A stretch of 64,000 nucleotides of DNA, taken from Poseidonibacter lekithochrous. GTDB lineage: Bacteria > Campylobacterota > Campylobacteria > Campylobacterales > Arcobacteraceae. The notes under the pieces are model-generated. The model was not told the origin of the DNA, did not search any database, and was given only the letters and a program-made list of their open reading frames with translations. The translations under genes and the position numbers were made by a program. The DNA is taken from NCBI RefSeq assembly GCF_013283835.1, contig NZ_CP054052.1, positions 2,604,001 through 2,668,000 of the forward strand, in the 5' to 3' direction. Of this stretch, positions 22,521-33,162 are shown piece by piece (positions within the stretch are counted from its first letter, which is position 1; each line of letters starts with the position of its first letter).

Positions 22521-22534
22521 TTGATTCTCATCAA
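22521..22534. promoter_or_regulatory. Perfect FNR/CRP-family operator
   Basis: TTGAT-TCTC-ATCAA is an exact match to the FNR-type consensus TTGAT-N4-ATCAA. Its centre is at 22527.5, 63 bases before the start codon at 22591. A site at -41.5 would put transcription start near 22569, and a weak -10-like TACTAA lies at 22554-22559. This is the geometry of a class II activated promoter. Confidence 0.8.
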
Positions 22535-22590
22535 TGTAAAAATATATCTATTCTACTAAGATTTAAAAATAATAAATTTAGGAGAACGAA

Positions 22591-22935
22591 ATGAATTTAC
22601 TTCCAGAAGATGCAACAAAAATTGAAATCGATGGTTCAACAGTAGACTTTTTTGAATATAAACAAGATGGATTAATATATTATTACTTTGATACTTCAGA
22701 TAGAGGCGCACCAGAACCTATGGTAAATGCAATGGCAGGATTACAATTATTAGGAGAAGATAAAAAACTAATAATGATTAATCATAAGCCACCAATGGGA
22801 TTATTCCCAAGAATACAACAAAACTATAATTATGAAATTATTGAATTAGAAGATGGTAGACATAAAGTTGTTTTTACACATAAAGAAGGTTCAACACCAA
22901 ATGTAGACTTTTCAGCTAATACTTGCGCAGGATAA
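22591..22935 (+). CDS. DUF2249 domain protein
   Basis: The 114-residue protein fits DUF2249: DTSDRGAPEPMVNAMAGLQLL, then KKLIMINHKPPMGLFPRIQ, then a glycine-rich end. Small proteins of this SirA/TusA-like fold are frequent near denitrification and nitric oxide genes, where a redox or sulphur-related role has been proposed. The family's function is not settled. It ends in NTCAG with a lone Cys near the C-terminus. It is the first gene behind the FNR-type site, with an AGGAGAA ribosome site. Confidence 0.85.
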   Translation: MNLLPEDATKIEIDGSTVDFFEYKQDGLIYYYFDTSDRGAPEPMVNAMAGLQLLGEDKKLIMINHKPPMGLFPRIQQNYNYEIIELEDGRHKVVFTHKEGSTPNVDFSANTCAG

Positions 22936-22938
22936 AAA

Positions 22939-24174
22939 ATGACACAGATTTCACAGGACTTTGCACCACCATTTAAATTAATAGCACCATATTTTATTAT
23001 TGGTTCTATTTTTTATTTTTTATCAACACTTTATTCTTTTAATCTAGATATTTCTGAAATAAGTATTCATAGTACTAACTTATTATCATTAGCACATCTA
23101 TTTTTATTAGGTTTTGCAATGATGGTAATTTTTGGTGCAATGGCTCAACTTATCCCTGTGACATTAGAAGTTGGACATTTTAGTGTTGAGTTTTATTACT
23201 TAATATATCCATTTTTACTAATTGGAACAATATTAATGGTATTAGGTTTTTCAGTTAATAGTACATTGTTACAATATGGTGGAATACTAGTATTCATATC
23301 AATGATTATATTTCTTGCTGAGACATTTTTGACTATTAATAAAGTAAAACAATATTCAAATGTAATTAAAAGTATTGTTGTATCAAATATCTTTTTAACA
23401 CTTGGAATTATATTTGGAATTATAATGGCATTAACATATGCAGGGCAAATAAATACAAATATAGAAGAAATACTAAAAGCCCATGTATACTCAGTAATTT
23501 TGGGATATATAACAATTACTATAATGGCTTTATCATTAGTACTTATTCCAATGTTTGGTTTATCTCATAACTTTTCACAAAAGCCACTAAATAATGCTGT
23601 AATACTAATGAGTATATCCACAACATTTGTAATAATTTCATCTATTTTCTCAATTGCAATAATTGATAAATTAGCATATTTACTTTCAGTTGTTTCTTTA
23701 GCTATTTATTTTTATCAAGTATACTTAATTTTTAAAACAAGAGCAAGAAAAGAAAATGATATTTATGTACTATCACTATTTGTTGCTTTTATAGCTTTTG
23801 TATTATCTATAATTACAGGTTTCTTATGGATATTTATTGGTAATGAAAGATTATTAATAACAACAGCATGGCTAATGTTTTGTGGCTTTTTTACATTTGT
23901 AATTATAGGTCATTTATATAAAATTATTCCATTTTTAGTTTGGTTTGAGAAATTCTCGCCACTTGTAGGAAAACAAAAAGTACCGATGCTAATGGATATG
24001 GTTCCAAAAAAAGCTTCATATTATCAATTTACTTTTACATTACTAGGAACAATAGTTTCAACATTTGGATTAATACTTGCAGAAAATAGTTTATTTAAAG
24101 CAGGAATTTCATTTTTAGCAATAGGCGCAATTTTTTTAATAAATAATATAATATATATAATAAGGTATAAATAA
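22939..24174 (+). CDS. Twelve-helix membrane protein with threefold repeat, haem-copper-oxidase-like features
   Basis: The 411-residue protein has about 12 hydrophobic helices. Three segments are similar: LAHLFLLGFAMMVIFGAMAQ followed by LIPV (from residue 51), AHVYSVILGYITITIMALSL followed by VLIPMF (from 181), and WLMFCGFFTFVIIGHLYKII followed by PFL (from 311). Each is a helix ending in an I-P, and the segments carry His53, His182 and His325. Subunit I of haem-copper oxidases and NorB also has 12 helices with threefold pseudo-symmetry, so a distant relation is plausible, but the full six-His metal set is absent. The family function is unknown to me. It lies between DUF2249 and MIP18 genes and overlaps the latter by one base. 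Confidence 0.7.
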   Translation: MTQISQDFAPPFKLIAPYFIIGSIFYFLSTLYSFNLDISEISIHSTNLLSLAHLFLLGFAMMVIFGAMAQLIPVTLEVGHFSVEFYYLIYPFLLIGTILMVLGFSVNSTLLQYGGILVFISMIIFLAETFLTINKVKQYSNVIKSIVVSNIFLTLGIIFGIIMALTYAGQINTNIEEILKAHVYSVILGYITITIMALSLVLIPMFGLSHNFSQKPLNNAVILMSISTTFVIISSIFSIAIIDKLAYLLSVVSLAIYFYQVYLIFKTRARKENDIYVLSLFVAFIAFVLSIITGFLWIFIGNERLLITTAWLMFCGFFTFVIIGHLYKIIPFLVWFEKFSPLVGKQKVPMLMDMVPKKASYYQFTFTLLGTIVSTFGLILAENSLFKAGISFLAIGAIFLINNIIYIIRYK

Positions 24175-24476
24175 TGTATACAAAAGAAGAAATATTTAAA
24201 GCAGTATCAACAGTTAATGATCCTGAAGTTGGATTTAATCTAGTAGAGTTAGGTCTTATTTATGATGGAACTTGTGATGAAGAAGGAAATGTAATTGTTA
24301 CAATGACTTTATCAACAAAAGCTTGTCCATTACATCAAATGATTGTAAATTGGGTTGAAGAAGCAGTTTTAAGAGAGCTACCAAAAGCACAAAATGCAAC
24401 AGCAAATGTAATTTGGGAGCCAGCATGGAATATTACTATGGCAGAAGATCATGTAATAAAGGCATTAGCAAATTAG
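24174..24476 (+). CDS. MIP18-family (DUF59) metal-sulphur cluster assembly factor
   Basis: The 100-residue protein has the DUF59 pattern: VNDPEVGFNLVELGLIYDGT (Asp-Pro-Glu region), VTMTLSTKACPLHQMI (reactive Cys) and VIWEPAWNITMA at the end. Relatives SufT and PaaD mature Fe-S proteins. The start overlaps the membrane protein stop as TAATG, so the two are probably co-translated. Within an FNR-type operon it may help mature an Fe-S target; this is inferred. Confidence 0.9.
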   Translation: MYTKEEIFKAVSTVNDPEVGFNLVELGLIYDGTCDEEGNVIVTMTLSTKACPLHQMIVNWVEEAVLRELPKAQNATANVIWEPAWNITMAEDHVIKALAN

Positions 24477-24494
24477 ATTTTCAATCTAATTTGC
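24468..24494. terminator. Shared hairpin between convergent MIP18 and aminotransferase genes
   Basis: A perfect 12-bp stem (24468-24479 with 24483-24494) closes a TTC loop. It contains the last codons and stop of the MIP18 gene (24474-24476) and the stop of the facing gene (24486-24488). It likely serves as a bidirectional terminator. Confidence 0.7.
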
Positions 24495-25643
24495 TTTAAA
24501 ATACTTACTAAATAAACTCAAACAAATACTCTCTTTTGAAACATCATTTTCATCAATAATAGATGCCAATATTCTAACACCTTTTTCAATATCCTCAAAA
24601 GAAGAATTAGTAAAATTCAATCTTGCTTCATTAGTTTTTTTATTTAAATAAAATACTTCAGCAGGTACAAAAGCAAGACCTTTTAAAATTGCCTCTTCCG
24701 CTAACTTCATACTATTCCTATTAAAACTACCATAAATAAACATTCCACCATTAGGTCTAGTAAACTTAAATGAAGGAATATATTTTTCTAAACAATCTGC
24801 CATAAAATTCATTTTCATTCTATAATCAATATTTAATTTTTTAATATGAGAAAATAAATCATGAGAAGTTAAATATTCATCTAAAATCATTTGATTCAAA
24901 GTAGAAGTATGTAAATCTAATGACTCTTTCACAACTAATAAATTATCTATAAACTTCTTATTAGCTCTTATCCAACCAATTCTTAAACCAGGAGCAACAA
25001 TTTTAGAAAAGGAACCTAAATGAAAGGCTCTTTCACAATATTTTGAAATAGGTGTATTATATTCATTATCAAAATTTAAAAAAGTATATGCACCATCTTC
25101 AATAAAAAAAGATTTTTTTCTATTAATTATATTTATTAAAATTTCTCTCTCAATACTATTATAAGAATTTGTTGAAGGATTTTGAAAATCACTAATTGCA
25201 TATAAAATATTTGAACTATTTAATTTATTAGGTAACTCACTTATATATTTAAAAGAATCAATCTTCATATTTAAACTTTTAAAAGCACCTATTGCTCCAA
25301 TATAAGATGGTTGTTCAATAATTACATTCTTTTTATCTAATGATTTAACAATAATATCAAAGGCTTGTTGACTTCCACTTGTAATTAATATTTCATCAGC
25401 AGATGTTTTAAAACCTAATTTTTCTGTATAAATATCTGCAATTTTTTGTCTCAATCCAAATAATCCTCTAGATGAACTATATTGTAAAGCTTTACTATTT
25501 TTTAATACAATAGCACTTGCATTTTGAATCTCTTCTAATGGGAATAATCTTTCATCCGGTAAACCACCAGCAAAAGATATTATATTCTCATCAATAACAT
25601 CTAAAATTTCTCTAATATATGATCTTTTATTTCCTTTACTCAT
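24486..25643 (-). CDS. PLP-dependent class I/II aminotransferase (MocR/2-aminoadipate transaminase-like)
   Basis: About 385 residues of fold type I aminotransferase without an HTH domain. It shows ISFAGGLPDERLFP at the start, ILITSGSQQAFDII, DFQNPSTNSYN (Asn-Pro), the PLP lysine region HLGSFSKIVAPGLRIGW and the carboxylate Arg in EARLNFTNSS. These resemble LysN/AlaA-like enzymes and the catalytic half of MocR regulators. The start at 25643 (MSKGNKRSYIREIL) has AGGAAG in front, while the longer frame from 25709 has no site. It is divergent from an AraC regulator that may control it. Confidence 0.88.
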   Translation of the reverse strand: MSKGNKRSYIREILDVIDENIISFAGGLPDERLFPLEEIQNASAIVLKNSKALQYSSSRGLFGLRQKIADIYTEKLGFKTSADEILITSGSQQAFDIIVKSLDKKNVIIEQPSYIGAIGAFKSLNMKIDSFKYISELPNKLNSSNILYAISDFQNPSTNSYNSIEREILINIINRKKSFFIEDGAYTFLNFDNEYNTPISKYCERAFHLGSFSKIVAPGLRIGWIRANKKFIDNLLVVKESLDLHTSTLNQMILDEYLTSHDLFSHIKKLNIDYRMKMNFMADCLEKYIPSFKFTRPNGGMFIYGSFNRNSMKLAEEAILKGLAFVPAEVFYLNKKTNEARLNFTNSSFEDIEKGVRILASIIDENDVSKESICLSLFSKYFKAN

Positions 25644-25751
25644 TTTTCTTCCTATTTTTATTTGTAGTATAGGAAAATAATTTATTTTCTTCTTTATCTT
25701 ATATTTCATTTTATTTGTCTTATATTGCTATTATTTTTGTTATAATGAAAT

Positions 25752-27956: not shown

Positions 27957-28074
27957 GAGCTGGCAGCGGCCTACGTTTCCACAAGGGGACCCTGCAGTAT
28001 TATCAGCGATGAAGTGCTTGACTTCCAGGTTCGGAATGGGACTGGGTATTGCCACTTCTCTATTACCACCAGCA
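27957..28074 (-). rRNA. rrf: 5S ribosomal RNA
   Basis: The minus strand carries the conserved core CCATTCCGAACCTGGAAGTC and a 5'/3' closing stem (GCTGG with CCAGC). Length is about 118 nt. The ends are set from the stem and could be off by 1-3 bases. It is the last gene of the 16S-23S-5S operon. Confidence 0.93.
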
Positions 28075-28138
28075 ATATGAGTAATCAACATATTATAAAA
28101 AATATATTCATTACTCACATTAAGTGAGTTATAAAAAG

Positions 28139-28222
28139 TAATGTTAAAGTCTTTGCGTTATTTCTAACGTCTTTGTTGACACTTAATTATTAAGTATACA
28201 CTTAATAAGATAGTAAACCAAG
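28139..28222 (-). repeat. 3' half of the 23S processing stalk
   Basis: Bases 28139-28154 are the exact reverse complement of 31342-31357 (16 bp), and 28203-28214 of 31194-31205 (12 bp). CCAAG at 28218-28222 pairs with 31187-31191. Together they form a long stem that brackets 23S rRNA, a typical RNase III substrate. Confidence 0.75.
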
Positions 28223-28230
28223 TTATAAAA

Positions 28231-31140
<2,910 letters not shown>

Positions 31141-31527
31141 TAATTTAGTTGATACAAGTATCAACCGCTTTTTTGAATAATTATTCCTTGGCTACTATCT
31201 TATTAAATTTACATTTAATAAGTTAGTTGTGTCTATCTATACTTTTTATTTAAACTTTCATTTAAATAAGTTTTTTTAGATATAAAATTTTTTATTTTTA
31301 ATAAATTCTTCATACGAAAGATTTTATTAACGAAAAAATTAAAGACTTTAACATTATGTTTTTAAATATCATTTTGATTATAAAACCAAATATAAATCTT
31401 ACTCTTTGTAAAACTTATATTTAGTTTCAAACTTACGGCTTATATAATCTTTATAAACCGAATATAGAAAAGGTTCAATAAACCTTTTTAGTTTTGAGTT
31501 TAGAAACGAATCTAAACTCTTTCTCTG
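31141..31527 (-). other. 16S-23S internal transcribed spacer without tRNA genes
   Basis: The spacer is about 387 nt and very AT-rich. I find no cloverleaf or T-loop GTTCGA in it, so the usual tRNA-Ile and tRNA-Ala are missing. It contains the 5' half of the 23S stalk (31187-31205 and 31342-31357) and the 3' half of the 16S stalk (31445-31469). Confidence 0.85.
31445..31469 (-). repeat. 3' half of the 16S processing stalk
   Basis: These 25 bases are the exact reverse complement of 33163-33187, located on the other side of the 16S gene. Confidence 0.85.
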
Positions 31528-33040
<1,513 letters not shown>

Positions 33041-33162
33041 TAAATGAATGTTTGAAACTGACAATTTTTGTATTAATTACAAAATTATCACTCAAATGTT
33101 TTTACTTAATGTAAAAAGCTTAAATAGACAAGAAACTTGTTCTTGTTTTGTTTTATTGTTTA

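Follow-up and report, generated by a model that had tools for sequence, protein, structure and literature searches.

A conserved DUF2249–membrane protein–MIP18 operon behind a predicted class II Crp/Fnr-type promoter in Poseidonibacter lekithochrous, a candidate accessory unit of nitrogen-oxide respiration

The 64,000-nucleotide stretch of Poseidonibacter lekithochrous DNA analysed here (the window) contains a conserved three-gene operon encoding a DUF2249/TusA-like protein, a twelve-helix membrane protein and an MIP18-type protein. Sequence comparisons support the view that a class II promoter of Crp/Fnr type faces this operon, and that nitrogen-oxide metabolism is its right context. On balance we favour a role for this conserved operon as an accessory to nitrogen-oxide respiration, keeping or supplying metal cofactors under NO. 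If the unit does protect or mature metal enzymes under NO, it would fill a gap among the accessory factors of denitrification and N2O reduction.

The putative Crp/Fnr-family operator, TTGATTCTCATCAA, is a perfect TTGAT-N4-ATCAA palindrome at 22521..22534 (no strand assigned), exactly where the original prediction had placed it. It is followed after 22 nt by a -10 element (TAAGAT, 22557..22562, + strand), the TA...T spacing of which is kept in relatives, and by AGGAGA (22580..22585, + strand), which resembles a ribosome-binding site and lies ahead of the first start codon. The predicted +1 is at about 22569, which would centre the operator at -41.5, that is, in a class II architecture.

In 77 relatives, 150 nt or more are available ahead of the called start. 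Of these, 44 carry the exact palindrome, 15 a copy with one mismatch and 18 neither; in random windows from the same loci (n=1540) the corresponding frequencies are 1.6% for the exact palindrome and 4.2% for one mismatch. A recount independent of start codons gave 40 exact, 16 one-mismatch and 19 neither in 75 loci, against a background of 1.8% and 3.9% (n=1600 random windows). Most orthologous operons (56/75) have thus kept the site with at most one mismatch rather than lost it. Of the other 19 relatives, three possess a two-mismatch TTGAC-type site together with a -10 element, and three more have no DUF2249 call and a site closer to the membrane protein gene. When the half-site was permuted, each of the 19 other permutations occurred in at most one of the 77 regions, compared with 41 for TTGAT; when the spacer was varied from N0 to N11, N4 alone was used except for one N11.

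The distance between operator and -10 box is constant. Counted from the operator's first base, positions 37, 38, 41 and 42 hold T, A, A and T in 55/55, 55/55, 53/55 and 55/55 relatives, these sites having been picked by their half-sites alone and cleared of identical 40-nt stretches, although the remaining sequences are still related. TAnnnT likewise occupies the -10 place in 56/56 of the recounted sites with at most one mismatch. The class II distance originally proposed is matched by a fixed 22-nt spacing. In a set of 30 loci the start-independent recount gave 20 exact and seven one-mismatch operators, and in lineages further removed exact operators precede the DUF2249 gene in 9 of the 13 loci having one. 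The closest match outside the genus (L034) also has an exact operator; its apparent absence there arose from gene calling that set the start codon too far upstream. The possibility that the operator is shared with the divergent permease gene (22398) was considered; in distant relatives the upstream neighbours differ and the three genes stay.

It is this conservation, together with the promoter architecture, that lifts the operator above chance. The bare palindrome count is uninformative since controls score similarly: there are 20 exact copies in the genome and 20 of the reversed control pattern, 7 of 18 genomic copies examined lie inside reading frames, and the 133 near-matches in the window (shuffle mean 117) were reached in 6 of 100 shuffles. 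The window has one more exact copy (1786), which was rejected as a chance occurrence, being located inside a 263-aa minus-strand frame with no -10 element in either direction.

The composite pattern (operator, 22 nt, -10) behaves quite differently from the bare palindrome, with 15 matches in the genome and none for its reverse. Downstream of 14 of the 15 sites there is a reading frame, its first start codon 21–92 nt past the predicted +1. The genes concerned include two napA, a nir cluster, nosZ and an operon that pairs a hemerythrin with a paralogue, as well as genes for a Rieske protein, a NiFe hydrogenase, cytochromes c and FeoA. Given the hydrogenase, Rieske and FeoA genes, a general anaerobic signal would fit this regulon as well as NO. 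As a simple regulon predictor, this promoter grammar might be tried in other genomes of the Campylobacterota.

Which kind of Crp/Fnr-family member would bind the site can be narrowed somewhat. The genome yields eight cNMP-domain matches at E<=0.001, six of them free-standing Crp/Fnr-family proteins, which were read, and two 610–619-aa open frames. The proteins read carry the FNR-type E-x-x-S-R motif, and in none of the six was the FNR-like N-terminal cysteine set (4Fe-4S) found. One Crp/Fnr gene is part of the nir/nor cluster, and another has an exact palindrome in front of its own start. In 22/80 loci the unit has a Crp/Fnr gene no more than five genes away. On loci L063–L158 the motif is present in 24/27 Crp/Fnr-like frames, the other three being frames of 104–155 aa, and each frame has at most one Cys within its first 40 residues. 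Because E-x-x-S-R is kept and the FNR-like cysteines are absent, a DNR/Nss-type, nitrogen-oxide-responsive regulator appears more likely than an oxygen-sensing FNR. The label "FNR-type" originally given to the site thus suits the DNA but not the regulator. DNR-type regulators also lack the FNR cysteines (PMC1274295). The Nss and DNR regulons (Wolinella NssA-C, TTGA-N6-TCAA; Pseudomonas DNR) have half-sites, a similar spacing to the start and nap/nos targets in common with the present regulon; the passages on their targets that were consulted do not name a DUF2249–membrane protein–MIP18 operon. That the operon is under a true oxygen-responsive FNR we consider quite unlikely: the site agrees with the FNR consensus at every base, and hydrogenase and Rieske genes do belong to the regulon, but the six proteins lack the cysteines and, according to a review, no FNR orthologue is known in the Campylobacterota (PMC6682613). 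The direction of control deserves some caution. In Nitrosophilus labii, also of the Campylobacterota, denitrification genes were expressed constitutively in anoxic culture, and for nosZ negative control by one Crp/Fnr regulator was inferred, a pattern which speaks against simple activation (PMC11539149).

The three genes are as tightly packed as originally described, with a 3-nt gap between the first two and one shared base between the second and third. Their order, which had been put forward for comparison among relatives, is, like the operator, kept widely across the Campylobacterota. In 30 loci of the membrane protein gene, window included, DUF2249 was present in 30/30 and MIP18 in 29/30; in a set of 80 loci, a DUF2249 orthologue lies upstream of the membrane protein gene in 77 and MIP18 is found in 76. 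Other lineages, with sequence identity down to about 33%, keep the order too; there a scripted call found all three genes in 11/16 loci. The remaining five comprise two loci in which MIP18 lies under an antisense frame (L065 and L076, read by eye), one gene-calling fault (L070) and two stand-alone paralogues (L063 and L071).

Gene 1 (22591..22935, + strand) specifies a protein of 114 aa with a Cys third from the C-terminus (C112-A-G). Its putative match to DUF2249 (PF10006) scores 22.4 bits, below the 29.5 cut-off (E 1.1e-4); genes of the Thermus and Ensifer units are annotated as DUF2249. In 80/91 orthologues the second or third residue from the C-terminal end is a Cys. We take COG4309 to be the same family as DUF2249. 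According to a 2005 study, COG4309 belongs to NnrR/DNR/NsrR regulons and was suggested to be relevant to NO reductase (PMC1274295).

Gene 2 (22939..24174, + strand) encodes the 411-aa membrane protein. A Pfam scan at E<=1 found no family match, COX1 alone being listed (E 0.44, 9.8 bits against a cut-off of 34.8), whereas the NorB-like protein of the same genome scores 186.4 bits with COX1; searching the PDB directly with a profile gave no relevant hit (best E 2.5). The fold became visible via the predicted structure only. The AlphaFold model (pLDDT 87.8, pTM 0.89) has twelve long helices arranged 4+4+4 and aligns with cbb3 chain 8smr_E (Z 32.2, rmsd 3.5, 381 residues; VIA-align) and with NorB 3o0r_B (Z 30.1, rmsd 3.6, 375 residues; VIA-align). 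Three internal four-helix units were recognized by hhalign, with probabilities of 93% between 1 and 2 (E 2.5e-7), 89% between 2 and 3 and 76% between 1 and 3. The protein listed originally as an uncharacterised twelve-helix membrane protein is indeed predicted to have twelve helices, and may now be assigned the heme-copper-oxidase fold.

The model and the histidine conservation suggest that this protein is probably a non-catalytic homologue of the heme-copper oxidases. H53 (TM2) and H182 (TM6) are the only invariant histidines in 21/21 divergent members. While the overall fold is common to the cNOR and CcoN catalytic subunits, four of their six metal-ligand His positions in TM2, 6, 7 and 10 are lost in gene 2 and two remain; W311 stands where the TM10 histidines would be, and TM7 has no conserved histidine pair. 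An active oxidase or NO reductase, which the whole-length fold match might otherwise bring to mind, is on this count extremely improbable. Aligning profiles with NorB gives a weak match only (probability 13%, E 0.002), in which the NorB TM2 histidine pairs with H182 when the whole protein is used but with H53 when unit 1 is used alone. Taking the fold, the internal repeats and this weak alignment together, we regard H53 as the equivalent of the low-spin heme ligand. H53 and H182, symmetry-equivalent in TM2 and TM6, would most likely hold one heme between them.

The closest known proteins are presumably the three-unit HCO-homology (HCOH) proteins of Pei et al. (2014), which reportedly consist of three homologous four-helix units with two conserved histidines able to bind one heme. 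Gene 2 resembles them in its twelve helices, its three units and its two conserved histidines. A denitrification gene context is common to both, and an association of DUF2249 with the heme-copper-oxidase superfamily is noted by a paper citing Pei 2014 (PMC11218638). The original description of the operon as an undescribed system must be qualified. As the 2005 study had tied COG4309 to DNR/NnrR/NsrR regulons (PMC1274295), the kind of system was already known, though not its biochemical function, and the DUF2249–heme-copper-oxidase link is likewise in print (PMC11218638). What the present genome comparisons contribute is the class II promoter and the set of constant partners.

A fold shared with NO reductase also brings to mind NnrS, described as a heme-copper-containing membrane protein in NO-linked regulons (PMC1274295). 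By analogy the gene 2 protein might bind or remove NO or dinitrosyl-iron species, the small proteins supporting its assembly. An NnrS gene does lie near the homologous Ensifer unit, and the hemerythrin-linked paralogue is under the same promoter. However, gene 2 has no NnrS match in the Pfam scan at E<=1, the Ensifer NnrS gene is separate from the unit, and the most constant partners, DUF2249 and MIP18, suggest a task in cofactor handling and not just NO chemistry. We would give NnrS-like tolerance limited credence, and retain cofactor maintenance or supply as the preferred role.

Gene 3 (24174..24476, + strand) encodes a 100-aa protein matching Pfam PF01883 (FeS_assembly_P) at 53.2 bits, above the 23.5 cut-off. 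C51, P52 and H54 (C51-P-x-H54) are invariant in 92/92 distinct sequences. Gene 3 falls below the cut-offs of the SufT, PaaD and SUF-associated NCBIfam equivalogs, the best being TIGR02945 (72.2 versus 143.4 bits).

Judged by its membrane protein, the unit occurs in 156 of 397 sampled genomes of the Campylobacterota. This call required a membrane-protein match at E<=1e-21 and took no account of DUF2249 or MIP18; 29 genomes with weaker matches were counted as lacking the unit, as were six with only a stand-alone paralogue, one of which (G308) was read and five judged by genus or by about 35% identity. Among genomes with the protein 114/156 have nosZ (PF18764 match) and 103/156 have NOR (match to the P. 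lekithochrous NorB-like protein at E<=1e-20), versus 14/241 and 25/241 of those without, these statistics ignoring shared ancestry. NapA is found in 151/157 with the protein, one genome at E 1.1e-21 having been added by hand, and in 180/240 without. Outside the phylum, plasmids of Thermus and Ensifer carry homologous units within denitrification islands, after nar in the former and between nor and nirK in the latter. The shared promoter and these islands bear out the nitrogen-oxide context originally anticipated from DUF2249. Upstream of the Ensifer DUF2249 gene no TTGAT-type operator was found; TTG-N8-CAA elements occur there, at -114 and -162.

One might read these figures as pointing to a dedicated maturation factor for a single denitrification enzyme, with NosZ and NOR the likeliest candidates, since the membrane protein is present in 114/128 nosZ genomes and 103/128 NOR genomes. 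COG4309 was suggested as relevant to NO reductase, as mentioned above, and a NapA-like gene, identified by sequence and by eye, is the next gene downstream of the unit in L072 and L076. But 32/156 genomes with the protein have a match to neither nosZ nor NOR, which is why we set this reading lower; 15 genomes of one genus (f10/g35) have the protein and no NOR match, and the neighbours vary between nar in Thermus and nor/nirK in Ensifer. A dedicated link to either enzyme therefore seems doubtful.

Thermus offers a further comparison in DrpA and DrpB, whose activator DnrT is presumably of the Crp/Fnr type. These are DUF2249 proteins whose expression depends on DnrT under anoxia and nitrate, and loss of both renders nar and dnr expression nitrate-independent; a role in nitrate signalling was proposed for them in Thermus thermophilus (PMC6282519). 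Membrane protein and MIP18 homologues do lie on a Thermus plasmid a few genes past two post-nar DUF2249 genes, the place described for drpAB. A nitrate or N-oxide sensor is nonetheless unlikely here: in none of the three operon proteins do Pfam and NCBIfam reveal a domain for signalling or for binding DNA, and the double drp mutant has much reduced nitrate reductase activity, which would also fit maturation (PMC6282519). A DrpB-like gene is absent from the window operon and the DrpA-like protein of the Thermus plasmid, unlike gene 1, has no C-terminal Cys tail.

For the accessory unit that we prefer, we would envisage that low oxygen together with nitrogen oxides causes a DNR/Nss-type regulator to bind the -41.5 palindrome and to activate the operon in class II fashion alongside nap, nir, nos and the hemerythrin-paralogue operon. 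The membrane protein, having no catalytic binuclear site, would carry one heme on its two histidines, and NO binding or electron transfer may take place at this heme. The two small proteins, DUF2249 ending in a Cys/His tail and the MIP18-type one bearing Cys-Pro-x-His, would act on the cytoplasmic side. The unit would most probably preserve iron-sulphur or other metal cofactors, or give metal or sulphur to respiratory enzymes, under the NO arising from denitrification or nitrite reduction. The "third pore" of oxidases and NO reductases is not known to hold a cofactor. Tentatively, the single heme could sit there, between units 1 and 2, and with the tailed DUF2249 protein as carrier and the MIP18-type protein as Fe-S factor form a relay driven by membrane redox for the repair or loading of metal centres under NO. 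Since just one membrane protein and its two invariant histidines are concerned, the unit would lend itself to a clean biochemical test.

The terminator scan listed nothing at the end of the operon, where a 13-bp perfect inverted repeat with a TTC loop (24467..24495, no strand assigned) was noted on reading the sequence. The scan probably missed it because its stem is A+T-rich, and it could possibly serve as a bidirectional terminator between the convergent genes.

The original prediction placed a TTGAT-N4-ATCAA palindrome at 22521–22534, and the sequence bears this out: it reads TTGATTCTCATCAA and lies 56 nt ahead of the first start codon of three plus-strand genes specifying a DUF2249 protein (gene 1, 22591–22935), a membrane protein (gene 2, 22939–24174) and a MIP18-type protein (gene 3, 24174–24476). 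The window (G000:C1:2604001–2668000) belongs to a genome of 3.57 Mb in a single contig. Among the best 80 of 297 loci, the named organisms whose membrane gene comes closest to that of the window are Arcobacter sp. UBA7394 (95% identity) and Poseidonibacter (70%). A MocR-like aminotransferase-domain protein, in which Pfam found no GntR DNA-binding domain, is read towards the operon at 24486–25709, and a complete ribosomal RNA operon (16S, 23S, 5S) occupies 27958–33044 on the minus strand.

The exact palindrome occurs 20 times in this genome, and since the reversed control pattern is equally common its frequency alone is no evidence. Among the 30 best loci of a phylum search (window included), 19 have an exact site and seven a singly mismatched one no farther than 300 nt from the called start; a recount independent of called starts gave 20 and seven. 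A public genome collection yielded 297 loci, and the best 80 form the second set, which has some genomes in common with the first; all are titled Campylobacterota except one titled only “bacterium.” Sufficient upstream sequence was present in 77 of these (44 exact, 15 one-mismatch, 18 worse). In the start-independent recount (n = 75) 40 sites were exact, 16 had one mismatch and 19 loci had neither, so that the operator is kept before orthologous operons with at most one mismatch in 56 of 75. Random windows from the same loci gave 1.6% exact and 4.2% one-mismatch sites (1.8% and 3.9% in the recount). Other permutations of the half-site were found at 0 or 1 of 77 loci versus 41 of 77 for TTGAT, and spacers other than N4 gave 0 or 1. 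Because the four spacer bases vary among relatives, it is the half-sites themselves that are kept, not an identical block of DNA. Three loci (L103, L129 and L154) possess TTGAC-type operators with two mismatches and a −10 element at the fixed distance; perhaps the operator preference has shifted in some lineages.

The decisive result for a class II promoter, which had been proposed from distance, is the −10 element at fixed spacing. In 55 sites picked by half-sites alone, with identical stretches removed, T37, A38 and T42 (counted from the first site base) are present in all 55 and A41 in 53; in the recount TAnnnT stands at the fixed place in 56 of 56 sites with no more than one mismatch. The consensus across relatives is TAtaAT, 22 nt past the palindrome (TAAGAT, 22557–22562, in the window), the spacing expected of a site centred at −41.5. 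According to the accessible text of PMC11539149, exact sites in another member of the Campylobacterota precede the transcription starts of napA, norE and nosB by 48–49 nt, which predicts a start at 22569 or 22570 in the window. Because the same text describes the denitrification genes of that organism as constitutively expressed, and one Crp/Fnr regulator as probably affecting nosZ negatively, we infer, rather than observe, that the Crp/Fnr site activates the operon promoter.

The composite pattern TTGAY-N4-RTCAA-N22-TAnnAT has 15 matches in the Poseidonibacter genome and its reversed form none. Fourteen of the 15 precede a reading frame, the first start codon being 21–92 nt past the predicted transcription start. 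Besides the operon itself the predicted targets comprise a Rieske protein, a cytochrome c/NirJ-like cluster adjoining cd1-type nirS and norCB-like genes, two napA genes with one site each (C1:589674–589715 and C1:1039514–1039555), nosZ, a NiFe hydrogenase small subunit, a multiheme cytochrome, a small cytochrome c, FeoA, an Lcl_C protein, a TonB receptor, a 144-aa protein without family, and a hemerythrin gene followed by a membrane-protein paralogue (L061:2943–4720, about C1:940942–942720; exact palindrome and −10). Of the eight exact palindromes within reading frames, two (L016 and L007) have TAnnnT at the fixed spacing and six do not; the L007 site also lies 55 nt ahead of a cupin gene. TAnnnT accompanies nine of the twelve remaining exact sites and is absent from L014, L021 and L022. 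At L022 (1520–1533; C1:3527519) the palindrome lies 19 nt before the start of a Crp/Fnr gene and has no class II −10, so this gene is possibly repressed rather than activated, and possibly by its own product.

The operator had been called FNR-type. The conserved site agrees with this, but none of the six cNMP-domain proteins read, from eight matches in the genome, has an FNR-like N-terminal cysteine set. Four of the six carry E-x-x-S-R, a motif which recognises TTGAT, as do 24 of 27 Crp/Fnr frames on loci L063–L158, the remaining three being short. Among the best 80 of 297 loci, 22 have a Crp/Fnr gene within five genes of the operon (18 CRP3-like, three CRP1-like and one CRP2-like). The available part of PMC1274295 gives TTGATnnnnATCAA as the DNR binding site and describes DNR, NnrR and HcpR as all lacking the FNR cysteine motif. 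A review (PMC6682613), in the part available, reports no FNR orthologue in the phylum and Wolinella Nss regulators that respond to nitrate, NO or N2O. Given the missing FNR cysteines and orthologue, the E-x-x-S-R motif and the N-oxide response of Nss, we prefer a regulator of the DNR/Nss type. The hydrogenase, Rieske and FeoA genes in the regulon would also fit a general anaerobic signal.

The membrane protein has no fitting family in Pfam or NCBIfam, and a profile search of the PDB by sequence returned nothing relevant. AlphaFold (48 sequences) predicts twelve long helices arranged as three sets of four (pLDDT 87.8, pTM 0.89), and Foldseek and VIA-align group this model with heme-copper oxidases; Z is 32.2 for cbb3 chain 8smr_E (rmsd 3.5, 381 aligned), 31.6 for cNOR 4xyd_A and 30.1 for NorB 3o0r_B. 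The four-helix units are mutually homologous (hhalign 93%, 89% and 76%). Of all histidines, only H53 and H182 are invariant across 21 divergent members, which come from Campylobacterota and from one Thermus and one Ensifer plasmid and include the L061 paralogue (25% identical, with both residues); H210 and H325 each occur in 17 and H80 in nine. H53 aligns opposite H182, where unit 3 has W311, and in a weak alignment of unit 1 with NorB (E 0.002) opposite the TM2 histidine of NorB. This pattern implies that ligand places remain in TM2 and TM6 but are gone from TM7 and TM10. Judged by its residues the protein has no binuclear centre, and possibly binds one heme between units 1 and 2, a position that would match the unoccupied pore of oxidases. 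Pei et al. 2014 reportedly described HCO-homology proteins built of three units, with two histidines that could bind one heme. Paralogues at L063 and L071 stand alone, without DUF2249 or MIP18 genes; that at L071 has an exact palindrome starting 62 nt ahead of its start. The operon is also present in L110, a metagenome record titled Helicobacter pylori PMSS1, probably wrongly, with a membrane protein 54% identical, like Sulfurimonas-type matches.

All 92 distinct sequences of the MIP18-type protein carry C51-P52-x-H54. Gene 1 shows TusA/DUF2249 likeness under the Pfam cut-off. In 80 of 91 orthologues the protein has a cysteine as its last-but-one or last-but-two residue, and in three the cysteine is set back four to six residues from the C-terminus; the eight without cysteine in the last ten residues are all His-terminated, and one Ensifer homologue has a Cys-rich tail and terminal His. 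Unlike these, the Thermus DrpA-like protein has no such tail. These counts suggest a flexible metal- or sulphur-carrying arm.

The clustering of DUF2249 with denitrification genes, as originally noted for other bacteria, is seen on two plasmids. Thermus pTHTHE1601 has, in order, a nar operon, two DUF2249 genes, a hypothetical gene, protoglobin, the membrane homologue and a metal-sulfur cluster assembly factor. Ensifer pT173d has norCBQD-type genes, hemN, DUF2249, the membrane homologue, DUF2249, a metal-sulfur cluster assembly factor, NnrS, nirK, a SUMF1-type gene and Crp/Fnr. At L072 and L076, both from the phylum search, the gene immediately downstream of the operon is NapA-like. In raw counts over 397 genomes, which include shared ancestry, nosZ occurs in 114/156 genomes with the membrane protein versus 14/241 without, NOR in 103/156 versus 25/241, and NapA in 151/157 versus 180/240; 32 of the 156 have neither nosZ nor NOR. 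The most likely role of the operon is cofactor maintenance under NO.

We consider the finding real and useful. It was put forward as an undescribed system, and no description of the three-gene unit was found in the literature searched, mostly papers free of subscription; however, the operon is an accessory to a type of regulon already known, and the fold of its membrane protein is also known. In 2005 COG4309 was tied to NOR and to the sites of NnrR, NsrR and DNR (PMC1274295, accessible part). DUF2249 is named in two of the papers searched, the available portions of which report induction of all four haloarchaeal DUF2249 genes under denitrification by RNA-seq (PMC11218638) and treat DUF2249 proteins in a DrpA/DrpB study (PMC6282519).

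An FmdE-like gene of about 200 aa, a possible fourth operon member, lies near the operon at L074:1825–2427 (the copy examined with Pfam), L069:4633–5241 and L077:2309–2923, and in seven of the best 80 of 297 loci; it is sometimes accompanied by a DUF1858-DUF2249 gene. On an 83-kb plasmid of Aliarcobacter butzleri (L161, NZ_CP104333.1) a copy of the operon is flanked on one side by a Tn3-family transposase and on the other by an IS21 element, a setting suggestive of horizontal movement.
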